From a virus: a stretch of DNA of 53,195 nucleotides. Under the pieces are notes generated by a model. That model had not been told where the DNA came from and made no database searches. It worked only from the letters and a program-made list of their open reading frames with translations. Positions 798 to 53,195 of the stretch are shown piece by piece. The stretch covers positions 1 through 53,195 of IMG/VR virus record IMGVR_UViG_3300046499_000271. One strand, 5' to 3'. The position numbers and the translations under genes are program-made. How positions within the stretch are numbered: position 1 is the stretch's first letter; each line of letters begins with the position of its first letter.

Positions 798-826
798 ATC
801 ATAGGACTATCTGTCCAGCATTGCAA
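798..826 (-). promoter_or_regulatory. Leftward early promoter (PL-like)
   Basis: On the minus strand TTGCAA (821-826) and TATGAT (798-803) are separated by exactly 17 bases, a good sigma-70 match. One GGAC-N5-GTCC operator fills most of the spacer and a second abuts the upstream side of the -35 box, so bound repressor would block polymerase. The predicted start, near 791, leaves a leader of about 40 bases before the first gene. This promoter should drive the whole leftward operon across the sequence ends. Confidence 0.75.
804..816. promoter_or_regulatory. Repressor operator, copy 1 (left promoter spacer)
   Basis: Perfect half-sites GGAC/GTCC with spacer TATCT form a 13-bp palindrome lying between the -35 and -10 boxes of the leftward promoter. 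It is one of four such palindromes in the immunity region, which fit GGAC-RRATW-GTCC in one orientation. Confidence 0.75.
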
Positions 827-839
827 GGACTATTTGTCC
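827..839. promoter_or_regulatory. Repressor operator, copy 2 (upstream of left -35)
   Basis: GGAC-TATTT-GTCC, 23 bp centre to centre from copy 1 (just over two helical turns), lies directly beside the leftward -35 box. The spacing suits cooperative binding of two dimers on one face of the helix. Confidence 0.72.
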
Positions 840-850
840 AGCATGCGGAC

Positions 851-879
851 AAAAAAACGGCGCAGTGTTTGCTGCGCCG
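851..879 (-). terminator. Rho-independent terminator after repressor/outer-membrane gene transcript
   Basis: A perfect 8-bp stem (CGGCGCAG with CTGCGCCG) and a 6-base loop are followed on the minus strand by seven T residues. It lies about 30 bases beyond the stop of the outer-membrane protein gene and upstream of the leftward early promoter. It should therefore end the repressor transcript before it can enter the lytic operon. Confidence 0.9.
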
Positions 880-907: not shown

Positions 908-1453
908 TTAATTAAAAAGCCATGAAAATCCCAGGGAAATCATCCGAAAATCAGTCCCATCGACGTCGGCACCCTCGAACTCAAGTCGGGCTTTTGCGCT
1001 GGGATTGATACTCAATTCCAGGCCCAGGCCCCACGAAAATTCGTTTCCGCTGTCTTCTGCGGAGACGAAATTAAGGCCGCTGGAGGCCGTGATGGTGCTA
1101 TCCCAGAATAGGATTCCAGCCTTGGCAAAGCCGGCCAAACTCGCATTAAAGGGCACCTTACCGAGCAGGGCGGCTTGAAAGGCTGTGGCGTCTAATTCCA
1201 CGTTGATCCCTTGGATTTTATCGTCTGGCGCCCCTACGTCGATATATGCGCCTTCCACGGAAAAATTAGTGTTTATCTGATAGCCACCGAAGATCCGGAA
1301 GGCCGTATCAGTGCCGTCGAATGACAGCCCAGCTTCGCTGTCGCTGACTTTAGATTGTCCAATGCCGACACCGGCATAGAACCCCTTATCATCCGCTGCG
1401 TATGTAGCCGTGCTCGCACCCAGAATGGCGAGAGCGATTGTCTTTCTCAACAT
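908..1453 (-). CDS. Outer-membrane beta-barrel protein, likely lysogenic conversion factor
   Basis: This 181-residue protein opens with a signal peptide (MLRKTIALAILG, cleavage probably after ATYA). Repeated amphipathic strands of the OmpA-like/OMP_b-brl type follow (GFYAGVGIGQ, FRIFGGYQI, SWGLGLEL), and it ends in an aromatic-containing C-terminal strand (FSWLFN), as outer-membrane proteins do. The start at 1453 has AAGGAG eight bases upstream; a longer in-frame start would destroy the signal peptide. It follows the repressor by 37 bases on the same strand and is closed by a terminator, so it is probably transcribed with the repressor in the lysogen. By position it resembles Lom- or Bor-type surface genes of lambdoid phages. 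Its role (surface change, receptor masking, serum survival) is inference. Confidence 0.82.
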   Translation of the reverse strand: MLRKTIALAILGASTATYAADDKGFYAGVGIGQSKVSDSEAGLSFDGTDTAFRIFGGYQINTNFSVEGAYIDVGAPDDKIQGINVELDATAFQAALLGKVPFNASLAGFAKAGILFWDSTITASSGLNFVSAEDSGNEFSWGLGLELSINPSAKARLEFEGADVDGTDFRMISLGFSWLFN

Positions 1454-1490
1454 TTCCTTAGCTCCTTTTGTGATTTTTCGACTCAACCCT

Positions 1491-1760
1491 TTATGAGGCG
1501 TGTAGATCGCCTGCTGTTTTCTTGTTGCGGAGCGACATTTCGCCATACAGGTATGACATATCTACGCCAAGGAATGTACAGGCCGCAGGAATAAGGTGGT
1601 GGGGCATTAGCGTGCGGCTTTCATATTTACTATAGGTATTTGGCGTAATTCCTAGCGCCTTCGCGATCTCGGCCTGCTCCTTTCCGGCTACGAGGCGGGC
1701 CGCCGCTAGCCTTTGGCAGAATCCCTTCTTGAATTGTGTGGGCGTGTTGACTCGGCTCAT
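1491..1760 (-). CDS. CI-like prophage repressor with XRE helix-turn-helix
   Basis: This 89-residue protein contains one XRE-type helix-turn-helix: RLAAARLVAGKEQAEIAKAL, then GITPNTYSKYESRTLMP as turn and recognition helix. It has no C-terminal LexA-like protease domain and is much shorter than lambda CI, so induction would not go through RecA-stimulated self-cleavage. The start MSRVNTP at 1760 sits directly beside an operator and about seven bases after a -10 box, suggesting a leaderless message as for lambda cI from pRM. It faces the Cro-like gene across a 90-bp control region and is followed by the outer-membrane protein gene. Assignment as repressor rests on fold, position and operators. 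Confidence 0.82.
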   Translation of the reverse strand: MSRVNTPTQFKKGFCQRLAAARLVAGKEQAEIAKALGITPNTYSKYESRTLMPHHLIPAACTFLGVDMSYLYGEMSLRNKKTAGDLHAS

Positions 1761-1761
1761 G

Positions 1762-1774
1762 GGACAGATTGTCC
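1762..1774. promoter_or_regulatory. Repressor operator, copy 3 (at repressor start)
   Basis: GGAC-AGATT-GTCC overlaps the putative -10 box of the repressor promoter and ends one base from the repressor start codon. Binding here would shut off the repressor gene, giving self-limitation or Cro-type control. Confidence 0.75.
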
Positions 1775-1796: not shown

Positions 1797-1815
1797 TGGA
1801 ATTATCGTCTGCCAC

Positions 1816-1844
1816 TTGTTGGACGGATAGTCCAGTGGTATATA
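1816..1844 (+). promoter_or_regulatory. Rightward early promoter (PR-like)
   Basis: TTGTTG (1816-1821) and TATATA (1839-1844) have a 17-base spacer containing operator copy 4. The expected transcription start is about 1851, which is the A of the Cro-like start codon, so this message also appears leaderless or nearly so. It should drive the rightward early operon. Confidence 0.68.
1821..1833. promoter_or_regulatory. Repressor operator, copy 4 (right promoter spacer)
   Basis: GGAC-GGATA-GTCC overlaps the end of the rightward -35 box and the spacer. It is 59 bp centre to centre from copy 3. Occupancy would block rightward early transcription. Confidence 0.75.
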
Positions 1845-1850
1845 GGGCCG

Positions 1851-2096
1851 ATGAAAACCCTTGATGACGTCTTTTCGTGCTGGGGCACCCTCGGGGAAAT
1901 GTCCCATGACACCGGCATTGGCGAATACGCCCTGCAGAAGTGCAGGCAACGGGGTCGAATCGCTCATGACCACTGGGGAGCTGTAATCGATGCGCTCCAG
2001 AGGAAAAACAAGAAGTTGACTGTTGAGCAGCTTCTTACGATGCACGGCTCTGCGCTTCCGGCGCGCACTAATGTTTCGCGCGCTGCCTGTAGATGA
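1851..2096 (+). CDS. Cro-like regulator, carph-isopro/YdaS-type, 81 aa
   Basis: The protein begins MKTLDDVFSCWGTLGEMSHD and continues with a short helix-turn-helix-like core (IGEYALQKCRQRGRIAHDHW) and VIDALQRKNKKLTVEQLL. This layout (TLDDVF, R-rich turn, I-x-x-x-HW) is that of small Cro-like proteins with the carph-isopro domain that sit opposite phage repressors. The ATG at 1851 coincides with the predicted transcript start; an in-frame start farther up would overlap the operators and the repressor gene. Its stop overlaps the next possible start (ATGA). A role in switching to lytic growth follows from position; I do not see a stronger family assignment. Confidence 0.72.
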   Translation: MKTLDDVFSCWGTLGEMSHDTGIGEYALQKCRQRGRIAHDHWGAVIDALQRKNKKLTVEQLLTMHGSALPARTNVSRAACR

Positions 2097-2574: not shown

Positions 2575-2819
2575 TGCGTGAACAGGTGACTGAAGGAATG
2601 AGCAGCGTGGAATCCATAGACACGCAATACAGGTGCGCGGGAGAGACAAGCGCTCCCAGGTCGAAAGACCTTAAGTCTTTGTCTGGAGCACCGGCCTTAT
2701 CGGCCGTAAGGGCGGACAACCAGCACAGCAAGGCGGTCGCGATAGAGCCGCTGCGCCGGAGTAATGACCGGCCTCATTCCTTCAGTCACTTGATCCCTCA
2801 ACACCAGGCCACGTCATGA
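2571..2819 (+). CDS. Hypothetical early protein, 82 aa
   Basis: This gene overlaps its upstream neighbour by four bases and its downstream neighbour, the SpoU-type methyltransferase, by four bases (ATG at 2816), a strong sign of a coupled gene. The protein is polar and low in complexity, with Ser, Arg and Ala enriched; residues 30-45 are SAPRSKDLKSLSGAPA. It has no recognised domain. The coding region contains a GAAA-loop hairpin at 2658-2671 that may have its own role in the RNA. Confidence 0.5.
   Translation: MMREQVTEGMSSVESIDTQYRCAGETSAPRSKDLKSLSGAPALSAVRADNQHSKAVAIEPLRRSNDRPHSFSHLIPQHQATS
2651..2680 (+). promoter_or_regulatory. Possible nut-like site (boxA/boxB-like)
   Basis: CGCTC (2651-2655) precedes a perfect 5-bp hairpin AGGTC-GAAA-GACCT (2658-2671). 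Lambdoid nut sites consist of boxA (CGCTCTTA) followed by a small hairpin with a purine tetraloop-like cap. The boxA match covers only its first five bases and no N protein is identified, so this is a weak candidate. Confidence 0.22.
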
Positions 2820-3256
2820 GAGGTTATGCCGCTATCGGTCTACACATGCCCAAGACGCCGGCCAACGTCGGCAGCGTTCTGCGTGCCGCGCATTGCTATG
2901 GCGCCGCGATGATTGCCATGACCGGCCACCGTTACAAAGGATCGCCCACCGATCCGCAGAAGGGTTACAGGCATATCCCACTGATTCGCTGCGAGGATCT
3001 TCAGTCCGTCGTCCCATTCGATTGTGTGCCCGTCGCAGTTGATTTGCTCGACGGTGCAATTGAACTGCAAAAGTATGCTCACCCTGAGCGCGCGTTCTAC
3101 ATTTTTGGCCCCGAAGACGGAACACTTGGCAGTGCCGTAACTGACTGGTGTCGGGACAAGGTCTACGTGCCGACTAAGCACTGCATGAACCTCGCGGCCA
3201 CCGTCAACGTTGTCCTGTACGACAGACTCGCCAAACAACTGAGGGCAGCGGCATGA
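2816..3256 (+). CDS. SpoU/TrmH-type RNA 2'-O-methyltransferase
   Basis: This is a 146-residue SPOUT-fold methyltransferase of the TrmL/SpoU size class. Motif 1 is PANVGSVLRAA with the conserved Asn17 and Arg23. Motif 2 is FYIFGPEDGTLG (around residues 97-108). Motif 3 is MNLAATVNVVLYDRLAKQL near the C-terminus, forming the knot that binds S-adenosylmethionine. Family members methylate ribose 2'-O in tRNA (TrmL at position 34) or rRNA. It lies in the early operon, overlapped by four bases on both sides. The target could be host tRNA, a phage transcript or rRNA; sequence alone cannot tell. Confidence 0.9.
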   Translation: MRGYAAIGLHMPKTPANVGSVLRAAHCYGAAMIAMTGHRYKGSPTDPQKGYRHIPLIRCEDLQSVVPFDCVPVAVDLLDGAIELQKYAHPERAFYIFGPEDGTLGSAVTDWCRDKVYVPTKHCMNLAATVNVVLYDRLAKQLRAAA

Positions 3257-3395: not shown

Positions 3396-3592
3396 GCCCA
3401 TCTGCCGAACGCCGCCAGCTCGCACTCCAGCTTCGCGCCAATGCACGTCGCATCGAGCGCGCATCGCCGGACGTGCTGTGTATGGCCGAGATTCGCCAGC
3501 GCGAAGTCAGTTCGTCGTTGATACGTATCGCTCAGTACCTAGAGGATGTGGACGGCCTACACAGCCGCATGGTGTTTGGGGAGGCGGCGTGA
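3392..3592 (+). CDS. Small helical protein, 66 aa
   Basis: The product MSPSAERRQLALQLRANARR continues with a second amphipathic helix (IRQREVSSSLIRIAQYLEDV). It is Arg- and Leu-rich and predicted to be largely alpha-helical. Starting at 3392 keeps the ATGA overlap with the preceding micro-gene. The stop overlaps the GTG at 3589. No family is recognised. Confidence 0.55.
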   Translation: MSPSAERRQLALQLRANARRIERASPDVLCMAEIRQREVSSSLIRIAQYLEDVDGLHSRMVFGEAA

Positions 3593-3783
3593 ACCATTTA
3601 TGGCGCGATCCACGTCGGGACATAACACCTAACCCGTGCCCGATATCGCAGCTAGCAGCGCGGCGCGCCGCCCTTACCCAGGAGTCGATTACGTGGGACT
3701 CATTATTTCGTTCGAGTACTGGCTGCCGTTTGGCAATCCAACGTGGCTCTGGCTTTGGCTATGGACACGCACCGATGAACTGA
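3589..3783 (+). CDS. Hypothetical protein with GTG start, 64 aa
   Basis: The GTG start overlaps the previous stop (GTGA) and has GGGGAGG four bases upstream. The product begins MNHLWRDPRRDITPNPCPIS. The 3' half overlaps the gene starting at 3693 in another frame, so either the overlap is real or this frame is spurious in its second half. No domain is recognised. Confidence 0.4.
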   Translation: MNHLWRDPRRDITPNPCPISQLAARRAALTQESITWDSLFRSSTGCRLAIQRGSGFGYGHAPMN

Positions 3784-3848
3784 CGAGCGCACATCTGCGA
3801 ATTGCCGGACTTGGCGTAACCATAACTGCTATCGGGGAACAAAAATGA
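3693..3848 (+). CDS. Small tryptophan-rich membrane-associated protein, 51 aa
   Basis: The GTG start is preceded by AGGAG at eight bases. The product MGLIISFEYWLPFGNPTWLW is unusually aromatic (four Trp within eight residues, WLWLWLW) and has a second apolar stretch near the C-terminus, suggesting membrane contact. Its stop overlaps the MT-A70 methyltransferase start by ATGA. A longer frame starting at 3636 lacks a ribosome site. The function is unknown. Confidence 0.5.
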   Translation: MGLIISFEYWLPFGNPTWLWLWLWTRTDELTSAHLRIAGLGVTITAIGEQK

Positions 3849-4900
3849 GTCAGCTTGCGACGGTGGATGTGGAGACGGGGGAGATTGTCGGCACGTCTCT
3901 TGACGTAGACCATGACGCGAAAGAATTAGCCACTATCGACCAAGGCGCGCGCTACGTCAGTGCATTCCATCAAGCAGTCGCCTTAGCCAAGGCCGCAAAC
4001 AAGGATCGGGCGACCGTCAACCGTTATGCCGAGCAGCTTGTTCGGCATGTGCGAGAGACTGGCCGACTCATTACGGACTTGCCCCGCAAGCGCGGAAAGA
4101 GAACCGATATTCAACCTGGTGAAACCGATTTCACCAGGTTCATAGGGGTAAGTGGATTGGACAAGCGGACCGCTATGAACTGGCAGTCCCTCTACACCTA
4201 CATAACCGAGCAGACCTTCGACGAGACAATCGAAGCCATCAAGGCTGACGATGAAGACATTATTGCGCTGTCGCACTTCTATGGGCTGGTGAAGAAGGCT
4301 ACGCGATCACTGAAAGAGCAGAAGCGGCAAGCGACGCGGGATGAGAACGCCAGAGTCATCGAAACTATCCCGTCGATTGAAGCCGTTACTGCATGCTTCA
4401 GCACCATCTTGATTGATCCGCCATGGGATTGGGGCGATGAGGGCGACGCGGACCAATTAGGCCGAGCACGCCCCACCTATGCAACCATGTCGATTGACGA
4501 ACTTCTTGCGATGAAAGTCGGGGAGAAGGCGGCGAAAGATGCGCATATCTATCTGTGGATCACCAATAGATCGCTGCCAAAGGGATTTTATTTGTTGGAT
4601 ACATGGGGCTTCCGCTATGTGACCTGCATCACGTGGGGCAAGCCCCATTTCGGCATGGGCAATTACTTCCGCGGACAGACTGAACAATGCCTGTTCGGTG
4701 TTCGTGGTTCCTTGCCGCTAGCGCGGAAGGATGTCGGGACTCTGTTTCTCGCGCCTCGAGGTCCGAACGGCCACAGCAGCAAACCGCCTAAATTTTACGA
4801 TCTTATCGAGTCATGCAGTCCCGGCCCGTACCTAGAGATTTTCTCGCGAACGGACCGTGCAAATTGGAAGCATTGGGGGGAATCCTCCAGTGTCGCGTGA
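3845..4900 (+). CDS. MT-A70 family adenine-N6 DNA methyltransferase
   Basis: The 351-residue protein has two parts. Residues 1-170 form a helical region with a DNA-binding look (DKRTAMNWQSL, KKATRSLKEQKRQA), common in phage members. The C-terminal part is the MT-A70 catalytic domain with the DPPW motif (residues about 190-193) and downstream ITNRSLPKGFYLLDTWGF and FYDLIESCSPG. Such enzymes transfer methyl groups from S-adenosylmethionine to adenine N6. It sits in the early operon with no restriction partner beside it, so protection against host restriction or control of expression is more likely than a restriction system. It overlaps both neighbours. Confidence 0.88.
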   Translation: MSQLATVDVETGEIVGTSLDVDHDAKELATIDQGARYVSAFHQAVALAKAANKDRATVNRYAEQLVRHVRETGRLITDLPRKRGKRTDIQPGETDFTRFIGVSGLDKRTAMNWQSLYTYITEQTFDETIEAIKADDEDIIALSHFYGLVKKATRSLKEQKRQATRDENARVIETIPSIEAVTACFSTILIDPPWDWGDEGDADQLGRARPTYATMSIDELLAMKVGEKAAKDAHIYLWITNRSLPKGFYLLDTWGFRYVTCITWGKPHFGMGNYFRGQTEQCLFGVRGSLPLARKDVGTLFLAPRGPNGHSSKPPKFYDLIESCSPGPYLEIFSRTDRANWKHWGESSSVA

Positions 4901-43814: not shown

Positions 43815-44837
43815 TTACTTTCGCTTTCTCGCCTTCGATCTCGACTGTGCTACAAGTGTGCCCACCTTTTCGGCCGCTGTGGCTAAATGATCGGGTGCCA
43901 GGTGCGCGTAACGCAGCACCATCGCATAGCTTTTCCATCCGCCGTACTCCATCAGTTCTTGCAGCGTCACGCCGCTCTGTACGAGCCAGGACGCGCCCGT
44001 GTGCCTCAAGTCGTGCCATCGGCACGGCGCAACCTTCGCCCGTATAACGGCTTCCTGGAAGGCCAGCGTGTTGCAGTCGTCGACCTTCCGGCCGTTCCAC
44101 TGAAAGACATGCGTCCCTTCGGGGTTGAGCGTCTTTAACTCGCGCAGAATCCTCACCGACTCCCTCGACAACGGAAGGCCATGTGACCGCTTGCCCTTCA
44201 TCTGCGTTCCAGGAATCCACAGCCGGCGCTGTCGCAGGTCGATGCGGTCCCATGTAAGACTCAGCATCGAGCGCATGCGCAGCAGGGACGACACGGCGAA
44301 GCGCGCCGCCAACCGCAGGTGCTTGGTCGATAGTTCGTTGTGCAACCGGCCAAACTCGTCCTGGGTCAGCCACCGCGGTTCCGGTGGAGGCGGACGGAAC
44401 ATCGGCACCTTGGGCGCATACTCCAGATATCTCCACTCGTCGGCGGCCATCTTCAGAATGGCGCGTATCACCGCCATGAAGCGGTCCACGGTCGCCTGAC
44501 TCTTCCCCTCGTCCAGCGCAATCTTCCGAAGCTCCTCGATTGCATCCCGGTCGATAGCCGATAGCGGCTCCTCGTCCAGGTGTGGTGCAAACCACCTCAA
44601 GATGTCCCTCTCGCGACGACCGATCGATTGGGCGCATTCGGTCAACCATCGCTGCGAGACTTCCTTCCATGTAACTGCACCACGGTCGCCGAGCTTATTG
44701 AGGCGCCAGATTCGTTCGCGCAGACGGTGCTCGAACTCTTCCGCCTCTGCTCGGTCAGACGTGCCCGTCGAGCGGCGAGTCTTGCGGCCAATCCGGACGT
44801 GCCAATGGGCAGACCCGGAACGCTTGTAGAGCGGCAT
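43815..44837 (-). CDS. int: Tyrosine integrase next to attP
   Basis: The 340-residue protein starts MPLYKRSGSAHWHVRIGRKT (arm-binding N-terminus), has a core-binding domain (VTWKEVSQRWLTECAQSIGR) and a catalytic domain. The first Arg is in SSLLRMRSMLSLTWDRID, HxxR is RWHDLRHTGASW (His275, Arg278), and the nucleophile Tyr310 is in MVLRYAHL. It cuts and rejoins attP and attB. It lies 30 bases from the tRNA-like core, so it is the likely cognate enzyme. Its first 156 bases overlap the excisionase-like gene in another frame. Confidence 0.93.
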   Translation of the reverse strand: MPLYKRSGSAHWHVRIGRKTRRSTGTSDRAEAEEFEHRLRERIWRLNKLGDRGAVTWKEVSQRWLTECAQSIGRRERDILRWFAPHLDEEPLSAIDRDAIEELRKIALDEGKSQATVDRFMAVIRAILKMAADEWRYLEYAPKVPMFRPPPPEPRWLTQDEFGRLHNELSTKHLRLAARFAVSSLLRMRSMLSLTWDRIDLRQRRLWIPGTQMKGKRSHGLPLSRESVRILRELKTLNPEGTHVFQWNGRKVDDCNTLAFQEAVIRAKVAPCRWHDLRHTGASWLVQSGVTLQELMEYGGWKSYAMVLRYAHLAPDHLATAAEKVGTLVAQSRSKARKRK

Positions 44838-52766: not shown

Positions 52767-53076
52767 CTGAGCTGCTCCTTGCTGCTGAGGTGAGCGAGCA
52801 TGTTTCCGCGTCTTTTTTCGTAACGCGGCCCGCGCTCACTCCGGGATTGGCCCCCACACCGGAATTGGTGCCCGAGGGAACATCGTCAGCGTCTGACTGC
52901 CTCAACCGCTCAGGCAGACACTCTACGGGCAGTTCTTTTTCTATCTCCTTCGCCTGGAGTGTCAGGAGAATTTTGTCGGTCAGTTGGCAAAGCTCGGTGC
53001 CCTCGCCGATCTTTCCATGCGTGGCCATATCGCTACCGATGTCCAGGATTCGCAGGCAAATTTGCTCAAGATTCAT
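52756..53076 (-). CDS. Hypothetical protein with variant at the left end, 106 aa
   Basis: MNLEQICLRILDIGSDMATH begins a helical domain (ELCQLTDKILLTLQAKEIEK). A low-complexity Ser/Gly/Ala tail follows. The left end of the window carries a diverged copy of its first 25 codons. It follows the 79-residue gene across the circular junction. The function is unknown. Confidence 0.55.
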   Translation of the reverse strand: MNLEQICLRILDIGSDMATHGKIGEGTELCQLTDKILLTLQAKEIEKELPVECLPERLRQSDADDVPSGTNSGVGANPGVSAGRVTKKDAETCSLTSAARSSSDAV

Positions 53077-53195
53077 GGCGCGCGTCCTCGGTGTCTGCGG
53101 GTCAGTCGCCCGCGTAGTTGCTGCGCATGCAGGTCACGCGCAACTTGTGCTGGTCGACCGGAGTAATGGATTCGACGGTGAACATGTGCTCGTAC
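53002..53195. repeat. Right copy of terminal direct repeat
   Basis: Match of the first 194 bases of the window, with the last 117 bases identical and nine mismatches before that. Overlap of the ends gives a circle of 53,001 bp and restores continuity of the leftward operon. Confidence 0.9.
53102..53195 (-). CDS. 3' part of the 79-aa gene completed at the left end
   Basis: This is the last 30 codons and stop of the gene whose complete copy is at 101-340 (ends EHMFTVESITPVDQHKLRVT...). It is cut by the window end, not by a mutation. Confidence 0.85.
   Translation of the reverse strand, partial: YEHMFTVESITPVDQHKLRVTCMRSNYAGD

Follow-up and report, generated by a model that had tools for sequence, protein, structure and literature searches.

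The window, by which we mean the whole stretch of DNA analysed (53,195 nt), is a complete IMG/VR virus record, in which a gene for an outer-membrane protein lies directly behind an immunity repressor gene. The features of this region, together with the integrase gene, are as follows.

804-839, minus strand: OL, two GGAC-N5-GTCC operators (804-816 and 827-839), 23 bp apart
826-798, minus strand: leftward promoter PL, TTGCAA-17-TATGAT, strong, overlapping the OL operators
851-879, minus strand: intrinsic terminator of the putative repressor-barrel transcript, a stem-loop (858-879) with seven T (851-857)
908-1453, minus strand: gene for an OmpA-type eight-strand outer-membrane barrel, 181 aa with signal peptide, from Pfam and profile matches
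1462-1466, minus strand: ribosome-binding site AGGAG of the barrel gene, 8 bases before its ATG (1451-1453)
1491-1760, minus strand: immunity repressor, 89 aa, HTH only with no S24 peptidase domain, from domain search and family alignment
1762-1774, minus strand: OR site adjoining the repressor start and overlapping the putative PRM -10 region, in the same register in relatives
1796-1768, minus strand: putative PRM, GTGACG-17-GACAAT, a weak sigma-70 match
1798-1810, minus strand: degenerate middle OR site AGACGATAATTCC, weak and recognised by eye, in the register seen in relatives
1821-1833, plus strand: OR site inside the rightward promoter PR (extended -10 TGG-TATATA, 1836-1844)
1851-2096, plus strand: Cro-like 81-aa protein, the first rightward gene, its start roughly 7 bases beyond the PR -10
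43815-44837, minus strand: tyrosine integrase (PF00589, 9.4e-27), indicating a temperate life style

The product of 908-1453 carries a signal peptide together with above-cutoff matches to OMP_b-brl (PF13505, 4.7e-24) and OmpA_membrane (PF01389, 4.1e-16), which place it in the OmpA-type barrel class and bear out the first-pass annotation of this DNA, where a beta-barrel outer-membrane protein gene had been proposed. A profile built from the barrel and its relatives matched the solved OmpA structure at 2e-19 and, more weakly, the OmpX/Ail structures at 4e-9; PF13505 and PF01389 were the only Pfam models hit up to an E value of 0.1, the Ail_Lom model (PF06316) being unmatched. The domain search found no C-terminal peptidoglycan-binding domain in the protein, which stops with the barrel; it is without the OmpA periplasmic domain and hence is not OmpA proper. 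An AlphaFold model made from the single sequence only was unusable (pLDDT 31). PADLOC and PHROG searches returned no match for the protein, and scanning viral and genome contigs by pattern yielded no close relative of it; the nearest sequences are chromosomal gammaproteobacterial barrels, which are ordinary OmpA-type proteins. Relatives at E 1e-12 or better were found in 53 of 196 genomes in the order of an uncultured 'Chromatiales' bacterium and were rarer in the wider class (22 of 369), an excess that only suggests a gammaproteobacterial source.

The barrel gene had been described as following the repressor by 37 bases on the same strand, with a ribosome site of its own and a strong terminator at its end, and the reading frames, the gap (1454-1490) and the AGGAG all agree with this. 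The hairpin, 28 bases beyond the end of the gene, has an 8-bp GC stem and, read on the minus strand, a U7 after it; a 65-base segment here folds at -25 kcal/mol. There is no terminator between repressor and barrel. A consensus terminator scan listed the 858-879 hairpin on the plus strand only, and its T-run is able to pair with upstream A's. It had further been held that no promoter is evident in the gap; the top promoter-like minus-strand score within the repressor and gap (1440-1760) is 4.5, as against a genome-wide mean of 6.8 for the maximum over 320 bp, a comparison which fits that claim and which neither proves nor excludes a promoter, the weight-matrix scan being without power here, as the proposed PRM itself reaches 6.6 and is no better than background.

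Perfect GGAC-N5-GTCC palindromes occur four times in the 53 kb (at 804, 827, 1762 and 1821) and nowhere else in the window; shuffled sequence gave 0.65 such sites on average and never reached four in 100 shuffles. From their placement the four palindromes are read as an OL/OR layout, between the two halves of which lie only the repressor and barrel genes. The transcript from PRM probably starts at or beside the repressor ATG. On the rightward side, the Cro-like protein had no Pfam and no PHROG match, and it aligns with the divergent small proteins of three related loci (L096, L105 and L116). As the repressor is without an S24 peptidase domain, RecA-stimulated self-cleavage is unlikely.

Using the paired-operator pattern and repressor alignments we recovered from viral contigs a family of 50 distinct repressors, the window included, with roughly 27-53% identity to the window repressor. 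A perfect operator was present upstream of the repressor (OR) in 44 of the 50 and downstream (OL) in 49, and of 36 OL operator pairs 33 had a spacing of 23 or 24 bp, that of the window being 23. Many members, again including the window, have one operator some 15 bases ahead of the repressor start, and in several relatives a -10-like CATAAT or CATACT lies inside that operator and ends 6-7 bases before the ATG, a position which suggests a leaderless repressor transcript.

The distance from the repressor stop to the first OL site is bimodal across 49 loci, being 0-123 bp in 34 and 237-1711 bp in 15, and the window, at 652 bp, is among the long ones. The slot between repressor and OL is thus empty in 34 of 49 related immunity regions and holds different genes in the others. 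A terminator stands just before OL in eight of the 19 empty slots of at least 55 bp, and likewise in the window, in L137 and in further loci; among random 120-bp stretches the rate is about 1%. In L125, L137, L176 and L180 the start of the cargo gene overlaps or abuts the repressor stop. The slots of the relatives contain the following.

L125, co-directional: protein with a single membrane span
L137, L169 and L176, co-directional: lipoproteins
L134, co-directional: exported VasI-like protein
L172, co-directional: two-span protein
L180/L182, co-directional: protein with an N-terminal membrane anchor; similarity to SieB at E 0.03 is sub-threshold and a lead only
L178, 4325-5035, co-directional: DUF3800 protein, non-envelope, matching the PADLOC candidate defence family PDC-M04A (1.1e-19)
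L170, co-directional: second HTH gene
L133, L147, L148 and L174: genes on the opposite strand
L160 and L179: nothing convincing

Envelope-type products are encoded by eight of ten co-directional slot genes (window included) versus 66 of the 639 other ORFs in these loci (Fisher 7e-7, or 5e-6 without the window). The count is small, and it depends on slot genes picked by inspection and on a crude predictor. Nor is the slot reserved for envelope cargo, as the opposite-strand genes of L133 and L147 and the non-envelope protein of L178 demonstrate. Exported proteins of phrog_2320 occur in two slots in opposite orientations (L169:4305-4742 and L133:4311-4721), and the slot of L147/L149 holds an opposite-strand MT-A70-type methyltransferase, recognised by eye (L147:3694-4692).

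An alignment search with the barrel family recovered a single viral contig, L195, from an unrelated phage, whose immunity region is laid out as follows.

3408-3944: repressor, 178 aa, with weak PHROG matches only
4001-4666: barrel, 221 aa, OmpA_membrane at 6e-19, 27% identical to the window barrel
4673-4701: hairpin with a perfect 12-bp stem, without a T-run
4779 and 4802: OL sites, 23 bp apart, within a TTGACA-17-TATCTT promoter
OR: three ACAAGCCCGCTTGT-type sites

The opposite flank carries a YdaS-type Cro and CII, and the record also contains an integrase. The order of repressor, barrel, hairpin and OL is that of the window, and the repressor and operators are unrelated to those of the window. 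Since the same order has been put together from unrelated parts, finding a barrel within a repressor operon cannot be put down to an accident of the window contig. Cyanophage and Halomonas plasmid barrels (H1, H3), by comparison, have no annotated phage repressor as a neighbour.

The first-pass annotation had also argued that the gene is made in the silent prophage and is a lysogenic conversion gene. The comparison supports this: the gene lies in a slot ahead of a terminator and OL, relatives carry cargo at the same place, L195 has its own barrel there, and the phage encodes a tyrosine integrase. On these grounds we consider it quite probable that the barrel gene is the lysogenic-conversion cargo of a temperate podovirus-like phage, placed in the immunity region where lambda has rexAB; lysogens most likely express it. 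The repressor would bind GGAC-N5-GTCC at OL and OR, shut off PL and PR and limit its own promoter by autoregulation. A single leftward transcript of about 0.9 kb would start at or beside the repressor ATG and run through repressor and barrel to the hairpin before OL, so that a lysogen would steadily make the barrel protein and insert it in its outer membrane. There the most likely role of the barrel would be to shield or alter the surface so as to hinder adsorption or injection by competing phages, which would amount to superinfection exclusion.

This position has well known parallels. The cargo of lambda cI-rexA-rexB and bstA of BTP1 lies between the repressor and N/OL and is expressed in lysogens, bstA from the cI promoter; accessory loci are described as commonly sited in this region of lambdoid phages (PMC7067206, PMC8585504). 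The window barrel is likewise downstream of the repressor, on the same strand and ahead of the leftward lytic operon. RexAB and BstA, on the other hand, are not outer-membrane barrels, and the window's HTH-only repressor of 89 aa would act through a different operator. In Streptococcus thermophilus phage TP-J34, Ltp is an envelope protein transcribed from the prophage which excludes superinfecting DNA (PMC3952083), and it resembles our case as an envelope protein encoded in the lysogeny module and on the repressor strand; it differs in being a lipoprotein of a Gram-positive host, unrelated in sequence. The defence genes gp43/gp44 of Gordonia phage CarolAnn are cotranscribed with the repressor and one encodes a membrane protein (PMC6426606), although they form a two-gene Rex-like system of an actinobacterium and include no barrel. 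Our partial literature search found no description of an outer-membrane protein downstream of a repressor. The slot and its logic were already known, while the barrel in it and the envelope bias of this operator family look new.

Whether the barrel serves superinfection exclusion specifically is close to an even question, and we would put it slightly below that. Exclusion is favoured because the known genes with the same position and expression logic all act against other phages; the protein family itself does not indicate a defence role, because neither PADLOC nor PHROG recognised the barrel and the related proteins encoded on chromosomes are of the ordinary OmpA type. The main rival is that the gene is expressed in the lysogen for another surface benefit to the host, whether through resistance to complement or antimicrobials, adhesion, biofilm or permeability, as with Lom, Bor and Ail. 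Such functions are found for OmpX/Ail-class eight-strand barrels in pathogens, and the phage-encoded Lom, which lies in the late region of lambda, belongs to the Lom/Ail-OmpX family of eight-strand outer-membrane barrels. The window gene, too, encodes an eight-strand outer-membrane barrel on a phage, and unlike lom it sits in the repressor unit. Lom is expressed in lysogens (PMC7067206). The profile match to OmpX/Ail structures and the chromosomal nearest sequences speak for host benefit; but the Ail_Lom model is unmatched, OmpA is matched better than Ail, and the unrelated envelope proteins and candidate defence protein in relatives' slots fit phage competition at least equally, and we regard host benefit as rather unlikely.

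Morons often carry their own promoter, and a promoter inside the repressor gene would make the barrel independent of the repressor transcript, as with genes 30/31 of Sbash (PMC6426606). The separate ribosome site and terminator would suit such an arrangement. We nevertheless think it improbable, given the low minus-strand score across 1440-1760 relative to the genome mean maximum, for what that scan can tell, and given the several relatives in which cargo start and repressor stop overlap or abut, which implies one transcript. Still less probable is a recently captured host gene with no selected function in the phage: its relatives are chromosomal and the contig scans gave no close phage relative, but GC and GC3 (0.524 and 0.577) match those of the repressor and phage (0.53 and 0.589), the frame, signal peptide and ribosome site are all intact, and the L195 slot independently holds a barrel. 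Lytic expression, for instance as a guard against re-adsorption to debris or secondary infection, has in its favour only that in known temperate phages the repressor transcript is also made transiently early in infection. It is very improbable, as the gene shares the strand of the repressor, comes before the terminator that stands between it and PL, and is read by no lytic promoter.

Returning to exclusion by repressor-coupled cargo, we tentatively propose that GGAC-N5-GTCC marks an undescribed and widespread immunity family with a short HTH repressor and an interchangeable, mainly envelope-type slot, into which barrels may have been recruited repeatedly, forming a new class of repressor-coupled surface-exclusion proteins. 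Given the operators, the slot gene of any member can be located by a mechanical search, and its product is predicted to be what a lysogen displays externally, which turns a single guess about the window barrel into a testable rule for an immunity family. The slot genes, most of them without annotation, are thereby candidate superinfection-exclusion or surface-conversion proteins from uncultured phages.

As to the phage itself, TerL is related to that of the temperate Bordetella phage BPP-1 and the portal belongs to PF12236. Neither barrel nor repressor was found in the examined records of TerL relatives (39-62%), several of which are fragments, and named phages gave no DNA match to window positions 1-25000. 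The first 194 bases (1-194) and the last 194 (53002-53195) are about 95% identical, the final 117 being identical, and since the ends match over this length the map is probably circular, in which case the leftward operon (1-752) would cross the junction and take in recT, the integrase and a cytosine methylase, all encoded at the far end. The repeat may reflect a circular molecule whose overlapping ends differ by strain variation, or else a small gene that is duplicated and at which the assembly stopped. In the early rightward region there is a SpoU-type RNA methylase (2816-3256; PF00588, 3.7e-12), unusual in a phage, and the window has an MT-A70 gene of its own at 3845-4900.
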